IMG/VR virus record: IMGVR_UViG_3300046820_000967
Coordinates: 1 to 28,141 of that record
DNA: 28,141 bases
Source of the DNA: a virus
Strand: one strand, 5' to 3'
Part shown: piece by piece, positions 23,817-25,976 of the stretch
Layout: each line of letters begins with the position of its first letter
How positions within the stretch are numbered: the first letter of the stretch is position 1
Made by a program: the position numbers and the translations under genes
The notes under the pieces: model-generated
Told to the model about the DNA's origin: nothing
What the model saw: only the letters and a program-made list of their open reading frames with translations
Database searches by the model: none

Positions 23817-24359
23817 ATGATCAACGAAGAAAAGTTTGGAACAGGCGAGATCAATCTTGCTTGCTCGCTCATGGCTCTAGGAGTGCCGTTATCGGTCCTA
23901 GAGCCATGCTCTATTATCGCGCACGAAAATGGGAGCGTGCATAGTCGATACAATTTTGAGCCGGTCAGCATCGACGGGAAATACAAGACAATCGAACTCA
24001 GCCGCGCATGGTCAAACATTAGCAAAGCGCCATCGAATCACCCGCTTGTTTGGCTGTCTGATTTTGTCAAAGCAGGCGGAAAAGGGCGCACGATCAAAGA
24101 ATGGCTGGAATTCGCCATTGATCGCCATGGGCTAGAGCATGTCCGAAATTTTGACGACGCAGAAAGCCACGTCGGGCAGTTTTCAGACAACATCGAAAGT
24201 TATTGCTTGGCGTTTTGCTGCAATCGCAAAACGCTGCTGGATTTGCATTACAAGGCAAAGCAAAAAATCTACATGACAAACGGATCGTCTCGCGTCATGA
24301 TCGACGCGAAAGCTCCAAAGCATGTAAAGCAGGAACTCATCAACAGACTGAACGGATGA
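23817..24359 (+). CDS. Unidentified tail-region protein before chaperone genes
   Basis: This 180-aa protein lies between the tail tube gene and the chaperone pair, an uncommon extra gene here. No recognised domain is found. There is an N-terminal apolar stretch (INLACSLMALGVPLSVL), a central PLVWLSDFVKAGGKGRTIKEWLEFAIDRHG, and a Cys-containing region (SYCLAFCCNRKTLLDLHYK). The first 90 nt contain a perfect 13-bp hairpin (23870-23908). It overlaps the next gene in ATGA. It may help tail assembly; the sequence does not say. Confidence 0.65.
   Translation: MINEEKFGTGEINLACSLMALGVPLSVLEPCSIIAHENGSVHSRYNFEPVSIDGKYKTIELSRAWSNISKAPSNHPLVWLSDFVKAGGKGRTIKEWLEFAIDRHGLEHVRNFDDAESHVGQFSDNIESYCLAFCCNRKTLLDLHYKAKQKIYMTNGSSRVMIDAKAPKHVKQELINRLNG
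23870..23908 (+). other. 13-bp perfect intragenic hairpin
   Basis: CATGGCTCTAGGA (23870-23882) pairs perfectly with TCCTAGAGCCATG (23896-23908). The 13-nt loop can form a further CCG/CGG stem around TTAT. It lies 53 nt inside the gene after the tail tube gene. No U-tract follows, so it is not a standard terminator. It may lower expression after the abundant tail tube gene or protect the upstream mRNA. Confidence 0.65.
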
Positions 24360-24733
24360 ACGCAAGAGAAACGAAATTAGCAGGTGCATGGCTGGGTGAA
24401 ATCATGCTTGGCGATAAGCCATTGAAACCACTTTCACTAGGAAGGCTGCAAAAGCTGGAGCTGATGAAAAACCGCTGCTTTGTCGAGAATTCGTCACAAA
24501 GCGAGATTGAAGCGATGGTTGAGGTGATTTATGTTATGGCTCACGAAGCGCCTGAGGTTGTCGCATACAGCCGCAAAACGCAATCTGAGAGGTCAGACGT
24601 GTTGTCAGATTTCGCGATCATCCACGAATCAGAAATTGAATCAGTAATCGCGCAAGTGCTTGAATCGGTGTCTCGCATCGAAGCGGCAAAAATGGAAGGC
24701 ACATCGTCGGGAAAGGAGACTCGCCATGCGTGA
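24356..24733 (+). CDS. Tail assembly chaperone, upstream (gpG-like) protein
   Basis: This 125-aa protein starts at ATG 24356 in an ATGA overlap; the earlier frame is an artefact. LSLGRLQKLELMKNRCFVE and the following helix (SEIEAMVEVIYVMAHEAPEVV) resemble lambda gpG-type chaperones, which bind the tape measure during tail assembly. Near its end lies the in-frame slippery heptamer G GGA AAG, so some ribosomes shift -1 and extend the protein by 78 residues. The zero-frame protein ends five codons after the slip (last sense codon at 24728-24730). Assignment rests on location, size and the frameshift signal. Confidence 0.75.
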   Translation: MNARETKLAGAWLGEIMLGDKPLKPLSLGRLQKLELMKNRCFVENSSQSEIEAMVEVIYVMAHEAPEVVAYSRKTQSERSDVLSDFAIIHESEIESVIAQVLESVSRIEAAKMEGTSSGKETRHA

Positions 24734-24768
24734 TTGCGCAGATCGAATTTTTTGCAATCAGGCATGGC
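24709..24768 (+). promoter_or_regulatory. Programmed -1 ribosomal frameshift site with stimulatory stem-loop
   Basis: GGGAAAG at 24709-24715 is read as G GGA AAG in the upstream frame, exactly the X-XXY-YYZ slippery format and the same heptamer as in lambda gpG-T. After a 7-nt spacer (24716-24722), the arm GCCATGCGTGATTGC (24723-24737) pairs with GCAATCAGGCATGGC (24754-24768). Fourteen of 15 positions pair, with one G-G mismatch and a 16-nt loop. A -1 shift continues in the frame open to 24951, giving 120 + 78 = 198 residues. The stem also covers the only nearby GTG start (24730). Confidence 0.85.
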
Positions 24769-24951
24769 TTAAAGCTGGATCATCTGTTATGGGATATGGA
24801 GTCGGCGCGCTTGATGCAGTTGCTTTACTGCGAGCCAATTTCACGGGGGGCAACCATGCGTTATGCGGCGGCGATTGAGGATCAACACACAAACAAAAAA
24901 CTTGAACAACTCGAAAGGAATCTTGAACAATGGCAATCGGAACTGAGGTAA
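24730..24951 (+). CDS. Tail assembly chaperone, downstream (gpT-like) part
   Basis: This ORF lies in the -1 frame relative to the upstream chaperone gene and is open from before 24715 to the TAA at 24949-24951. MIAQIEFFAIRHGLKLDHLLWDMESARLMQLLYCE resembles phage chaperone C-terminal parts (an E-F-F-x-x-R-x-G ... L-L-W ... L-x-Q-L-x-Y pattern). The GTG at 24730 overlaps the upstream stop as GTGA, but it is buried in the stem-loop, so most product is probably the frameshift fusion. The C-terminus is a coiled-coil-like LEQLERNLEQWQSEL and overlaps the tape measure gene by 22 nt. Confidence 0.75.
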   Translation: MIAQIEFFAIRHGLKLDHLLWDMESARLMQLLYCEPISRGATMRYAAAIEDQHTNKKLEQLERNLEQWQSELR

Positions 24952-25976
24952 AAGTAGGATTTGACGGCGACGAAGTCAAAAAAGGCTTTGCTGGCATTCG
25001 CGGCATGTTCGCCGGCGCTGCTCGCTCATTTGGCAAGGGCGCGATGATGATGGCTGGGGCAATGGGCGGTAGGACCTTGATCGACCTTGGATTGCGTTTG
25101 GCGAACGGAACGAAAGAACTGGCGGATTTTAGCGGCGAAATTGAAGACGTGGCGGTGCAAACTGGGTCGACGGTGACAGAGATCGCCATGCTAAATCGCG
25201 CATTACAATTGGCAGGCGCAAACATGGACGCTGGGCGCGCGTTGTCGTCATTGAGCGAGAAGATTTATGAAGCCACACACGGCGGAGAAGACTTGCAAAA
25301 AGCATTCGCAAGGATCGGATTGTCAGCTTACGAACTGCAAGGGCTAAATCCGATGCAACAATTCCTGACAACCATGAAGGCGCTTTCTGGTTTTACGGGC
25401 GACATGGGAGAACTCAACGACATCACAAAAGAATTGCTCGGCGGCAAAATGGGGATGCAAGCGATTCGACTTTTCCGTAATGAGGACGCAATGAAAAGCA
25501 TGGGTGAAGATGTGCGAGTTTTTGCAGAACAACTCGACAAACACGCCGCCAATCTTGGAGGGTTTGGCGACCAGATGGATCGACTTCCTTATTTGTGGCA
25601 ATCGTTCAACCTTGCCATTGCGCGCATTCTTGGGGCAAATGGCGACGCGTTAAAAGGGATTATTGACAAGCTCATGGCAATGCTAAATGCCGAGGACTTG
25701 TCGCAATTGCTTTACCAGCTTCGCGCTGAATACGCCAAGATGCTCGAAGTAATCGCAAACTCCGACTTCATGAAGTCATTCAAAGACTTCTTCCGCGACA
25801 TTGGCAGGCAGATTGGCGAAGGGATCAAGGAGAGCCTCAATCTCGATAAGATCCTAGGCTTTGGCGCGAACAACAACGCGCAACCAGATCGTCACATGGC
25901 GCAGCTTTTGAACGCCACGAATCAGACAAACAACATTCTCACATCCATCGAAAGATCAAACAATAGATACGCATGA
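24930..25976 (+). CDS. Tape measure protein (short)
   Basis: This 348-aa protein follows the chaperone genes and is helical and Ala/Gly/Leu-rich with hydrophobic stretches (AMMMAGAMGGRTLIDLGLRL, residues 38-57), as tape measures are. Heptad-like segments follow (SLSEKIYEATHGGEDLQKAF; LLYQLRAEYAKMLEVIANSDFMKSFKDFF). The start overlaps the chaperone ORF by 22 nt. At about 0.15 nm per residue it would specify a tail of roughly 50 nm, short for a siphovirus. The role is well supported by context; the tail length is a calculation from a rule of thumb. Confidence 0.8.
   Translation: MAIGTEVKVGFDGDEVKKGFAGIRGMFAGAARSFGKGAMMMAGAMGGRTLIDLGLRLANGTKELADFSGEIEDVAVQTGSTVTEIAMLNRALQLAGANMDAGRALSSLSEKIYEATHGGEDLQKAFARIGLSAYELQGLNPMQQFLTTMKALSGFTGDMGELNDITKELLGGKMGMQAIRLFRNEDAMKSMGEDVRVFAEQLDKHAANLGGFGDQMDRLPYLWQSFNLAIARILGANGDALKGIIDKLMAMLNAEDLSQLLYQLRAEYAKMLEVIANSDFMKSFKDFFRDIGRQIGEGIKESLNLDKILGFGANNNAQPDRHMAQLLNATNQTNNILTSIERSNNRYA

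Follow-up and report, generated by a model that had tools for sequence, protein, structure and literature searches.

The window analysed here, a viral contig of 28,141 bases encoding a helicase, a primase, a terminase, a portal, a head protease and tail genes, contains two overlapping reading frames immediately upstream of its tape measure gene, in the order G, T, tape measure. G denotes the zero-frame gene and T the domain encoded in the -1 frame (Table 1). The locus raises the question of how T is expressed, and of what part the predicted RNA hairpin at the junction plays in it. Judged from the sequence and its relatives, T is in all likelihood expressed by a -1 programmed frameshift of the phage lambda G/GT kind, with the hairpin probably stimulating the slip in the near clade.

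Table 1. Features of the G and T frames and their surroundings, with positions in the window.
Feature	Position	Strand	Details
Zero-frame gene, G-like tail assembly chaperone	24356..24733	+	125 aa, stop TGA 24731-24733
Slippery heptamer G_GGA_AAG	24709..24715	+	X_XXY_YYZ pattern in zero-frame phase, near 3' end of G gene
Spacer, 7 nt	24716..24722	+	first four bases GAGA invariant in near clade
Hairpin	24723..24768	+	RNA folding; comparison of relatives
-1 frame, T-like domain	24709..24951	+	80 codons from heptamer, stop TAA 24949-24951
Tape measure gene	24930..25976	+	348 aa; phrog_9570, E 4.4e-7

The two frames and the conserved heptamer

Around the slip the zero frame reads ...SSGKETRHA* and the -1 frame GKGDSPCV.... 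The 3' end of the -1 frame reaches 22 nt into the tape measure gene, and the start of that gene lies inside T. A preliminary description of the locus had placed the heptamer in the correct frame, equated it with the lambda gpG-T site, and proposed that a spacer of 7 nt follows it and that no stop interrupts the -1 frame between the slip and 24951. All four points agree with the sequence and its translation, the heptamer being that of lambda in the same phase. We infer the occurrence and rate of slipping, and the functions of the hairpin and of both proteins, as follows. Most ribosomes would read the 125-codon gene to its TGA and yield the short chaperone G, while a minority would slip back by one base on the heptamer and continue in the -1 frame to the TAA, producing a G plus T fusion of about 198 aa. 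If the proteins act as they do in lambda, G would coat the tape measure and the T part would recruit the tail-tube protein. The hairpin, located 7-8 nt downstream of the heptamer in the window phage and most near relatives, would probably raise or set the slip rate.

Neither G nor T returned a Pfam, PHROG or PDB sequence match, and no named chaperone family was matched. The structural model of G is helical (pLDDT 79.6) and gave weak BFVD matches, the third-ranking being the one named tail assembly chaperone among them (E 2.3). The model of T is of low quality (pTM 0.47), and fold searches with both models returned nothing convincing. Searches of named phages with tblastn yielded no match for the window T, for G or T of the related locus L036, or for T of L039, and no relatives were found among bacterial genome contigs. 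Since neither half matches a named family, sequence libraries miss the pair, and the present analysis provides an annotation for these orphan tail genes.

This strand of the window contains GGGAAAG five times, and the heptamer alone is therefore weak evidence. The strong evidence for the putative signal is its conservation in relatives. Searches with the chaperone proteins initially gave two loci, to which a DNA pattern added L009/L017 and L016. A set of 23 loci, some of them near-copies of one another, was selected by tape measure profile, with the slip site playing no part in the selection. L055, L056 and L057 were added by a T-protein profile and L076 by a final pattern search; having been found via patterns that touch the slip region, these four carry no independent weight for the heptamer. 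Both frames are kept and GGGAAAG stands at the homologous position in all 23 tape measure-selected loci, down to about 37-42% tape measure identity, so that the comparison across relatives proposed in the preliminary description came out in favour of the heptamer. Across the 23 loci, the distance from the heptamer to the tape measure ATG is 215 to 238 nt, the zero-frame stop follows 22 to 37 nt after the first heptamer base, and the -1 frame runs for 80 to 87 codons without a stop. Altogether, the heptamer is identical at the homologous place in 26 listed loci and the window, and it is also kept in a distant group whose G protein is about 28-35% identical. The residues GK occur at the slip in 13/13 aligned G relatives, and the window T protein shares 59-66% identity with its counterparts in four other lineages from the slip onward.

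The contig is metagenomic, and the two frames might in principle represent a single gene split by an assembly or sequencing error. The same two-frame layout with the heptamer is, however, found in more than 20 other contigs; the relatives thus already refute this explanation, to which we assign a negligible probability. Transcriptional slippage was considered as well and appears unlikely by inference, as there is no long homopolymer.

Start codons downstream of the slip

Alternatively, ribosomes might re-initiate at GTG 24730 and produce T as a protein of its own; in the window phage this GTG overlaps the zero-frame stop as GTGA and is preceded, 11 nt upstream, by the Shine-Dalgarno-like motif AAAGGAG (24712-24718). 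This GTG, however, is private to the window phage. Near relatives have CTG, CTA, TTA, CTC or ATC in its place and still keep the T frame as protein, and T is conserved beyond the GTG on its upstream side, as far as the slip itself (GKGDSPC). In the near clade, the stretch from the slip to the conserved T core contains no ATG, GTG or TTG other than an ATG at T codon 9 of L033. Re-initiation at GTG 24730 was rejected since the start is not conserved, and we regard it as highly improbable. For the same reason, the earlier proposal that structure selects one of two products, a fusion or a separate protein started at the GTG, was not sustained. Neither was the accompanying claim that the stem overlaps AAAGGAG, as the motif overlaps the heptamer and lies wholly upstream of the stem. 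With GTG 24730 confined to the window phage and T conserved to the slip, the -1 slip is the route consistent with every relative; the predicted -1 fusion is thus the best-supported expression route for T, and a separate GTG-started product is not supported.

The spacing of AAAGGAG is better suited to ATG 24726, 7 nt downstream in the third (+1) frame, than to GTG 24730. From position 24712 to 24728, AAAGGAG followed by [A/G]TG resembles a +1-frame ribosome binding site within the frameshift signal, and does so in all near relatives. A third gene starting at ATG 24726 and controlled by the hairpin would account for the spacing of 7 nt that all near relatives keep, and for a +1 frame that is open for 35-55 codons in them. 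Yet this openness is no greater than that obtained by synonymous re-coding of T, its length is not kept among relatives, and the +1 product shows 36-40% identity, compared with 64-66% in the -1 frame, for the two lineages compared. Moreover, the start is missing from the distant group, and its letters follow from the Pro-Cys codons of the -1 frame. The third gene was rejected on the synonymous null and on conservation, and we deem it slightly less credible still than re-initiation at the GTG. The arrangement of AAAGGAG and [A/G]TG probably arose as a side effect of stem pairing and of the coding demands of the other two frames.

The hairpin downstream of the heptamer

RNA folding of 91 nt yielded a free energy of -29.3 kcal/mol (z -2.4 versus dinucleotide shuffles) and returned the stem-loop after the heptamer at the coordinates previously given. 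The hairpin consists of a base stem, in which 24723-24729 pairs with 24762-24768 and which is common to most near relatives, and an inner stem, in which 24731-24738 pairs with 24753-24760 and which is mostly private to the window phage; a G.G mismatch at 24730/24761 separates the two. Its start 7 nt past the heptamer falls within the 5-8 nt at which stimulatory structures generally begin (PMC4066793), and in the window phage it is more stable than expected.

The excess of structure was assessed with a protein-preserving null, in which the T protein was held fixed, synonymous codons were redrawn and the 60 nt after the heptamer were scored. For the window phage, two runs that differed slightly in codon table and in random draw gave z -3.4 and -2.6. 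The group L021-L055 gave z values of about -2.2 to -3.2, the excess is smaller in L026, L028 and L030, L020 stands at z -1.0, and L033, L056 and L029 are near zero. When nine near lineages were combined, the stretch just after the slip was the lowest of 31 scanned positions, with a Stouffer z of -4.06 that treats these related lineages as independent. As a useful control, the tape measure start was the highest of the 31 (combined z +4.47, near clade). In the near clade the region around it, 24881-24940, has far less structure than the null predicts, which is what a ribosome binding site inside the T frame should show. After the slip of the distant group the mean z is +0.35, and the same test on lambda gives +0.94.

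For the covariation analysis, RNAalifold gave a base stem of 7-8 pairs. In 18 sequences, 74.3% of the cells of the named structure are paired, compared with 30.6-53.8% when the structure is slid along the alignment, and the covariation score was matched by 6/500 shuffles. With one sequence per lineage, the covariation is not clear of shuffles (66/500, and 45/500 for the base stem only, where 88.8% of the cells pair in ten lineages), and its significance at lineage level is modest. Six lineages have A-U at pair 24726/24765; L030/L031 and L076 have G-C there, and L029 and L033 have the mismatch A.C. On a protein tree, the G-C state must have changed at least twice. As 20/67 same-residue codons differ between L076 and L028, the probability of both wobble positions changing together by chance is about 9%. 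Of the compensatory changes that had been suggested as a check, this one pair offers at least two forced A-U/G-C switches; against them stand the breaks in L029 and L033 and the lineage counts that are not significant.

The frameshift could be real and the hairpin an incidental by-product of conserved codons in two overlapping frames, a reading we find rather unlikely. Most letters of the base stem encode conserved residues, with Pro-Cys on its 5' arm and Arg-His-Gly on its 3' arm, and protein constraint accounts for part of its conservation. The lineage-level covariation falls in line with such a reading, as does the distribution of the hairpin, which is broken in L029, carries an A.C mismatch in L033, is weak in L056, and is absent from lambda and from the distant relatives that keep the heptamer. 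However, the excess of structure persists when the null holds the protein fixed, and a pair at a wobble position has switched between A-U and G-C at least twice. We regard the support for the hairpin as moderate. Three lineages have it in a weak or broken form, and distant relatives and lambda lack it, so it would be at most an auxiliary stimulator and not an essential part of a signal whose conserved core is the heptamer. The earlier notion of a heptamer-plus-structure signal holds insofar as a hairpin lies downstream here and none does in lambda, but not in making the hairpin an essential part, as distant relatives keep the heptamer without it.

Comparison with known systems

The lambda G/GT frameshift and its wide conservation have been reviewed (PMC5009743), and modification of tRNA-Lys has a role at the lambda site (PMC7618472). 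The locus resembles lambda G/GT (Levin 1993; Xu 2004, 2013) in the heptamer, its phase and the position in a short gene before the tape measure, and in a -1 frame that adds a T domain and overlaps the tape measure start. Unlike the window phage with its hairpin, lambda has no excess structure after the slip; the proteins are not recognisably related by sequence, and T comprises 80 codons here and 146 in lambda. Very likely, the locus adds to the lambda G/GT class a new case, from an orphan chaperone family.

Signals of the IS911 type (PMC4066793) and of the dnaX type likewise combine a slippery heptamer with a hairpin placed at the customary distance downstream, but their heptamer is A_AAA_AAG and the gene is different. 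A conserved upstream Shine-Dalgarno stimulator was not seen at our locus, where a weak AAGG at 24696-24699, noted by eye, is not kept in relatives. Provided that a stimulator is present, G_GG.A_AA.G is one of the three heptamers on which slipping is strongest in E. coli (PMC4066793). In the survey of E. coli and other enterobacterial genomes in the same paper, a conserved hairpin followed the heptamer in three of five phage clusters and was judged relevant in one. A heptamer with a hairpin in phage genes has thus been reported before; in contrast to those clusters, all members of the window family known here come from environmental viral contigs.

The relatives form a natural series with the same heptamer, with and without the hairpin, in which the addition that a hairpin makes to a lambda-type slip site could be measured. 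It is conceivable, though we think it unlikely, that in this family a fixed heptamer is accompanied by a hairpin that is gained, re-paired and lost, so that structure alone would tune the ratio of G to GT, perhaps in step with tail length. The tape measures, all short compared with that of lambda, have 345-351 aa in the complete loci of the near, mostly hairpin-bearing clade versus 372-411 aa in the distant group without the hairpin, a single contrast that is confounded with descent.

Among named phages, the window tape measure is 31.5% identical over 45% to that of Methylophilaceae phage P19250A, in which the stretch before the tape measure contains no GGGAAAG. The window portal is 25.6% identical to the portal of Verrucomicrobia phage P8625. 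Directly before the tape measure, P8625 has a single ORF of 206 aa, gp18 (L058:7918-8538, NC_029047.1); the heptamer GGGAAAG does not occur in this stretch, and gp18 matches the profiles of G (E 0.13) and then T (E 0.014) weakly and in collinear order. From these matches, gp18 may represent a natural in-frame G-T fusion.
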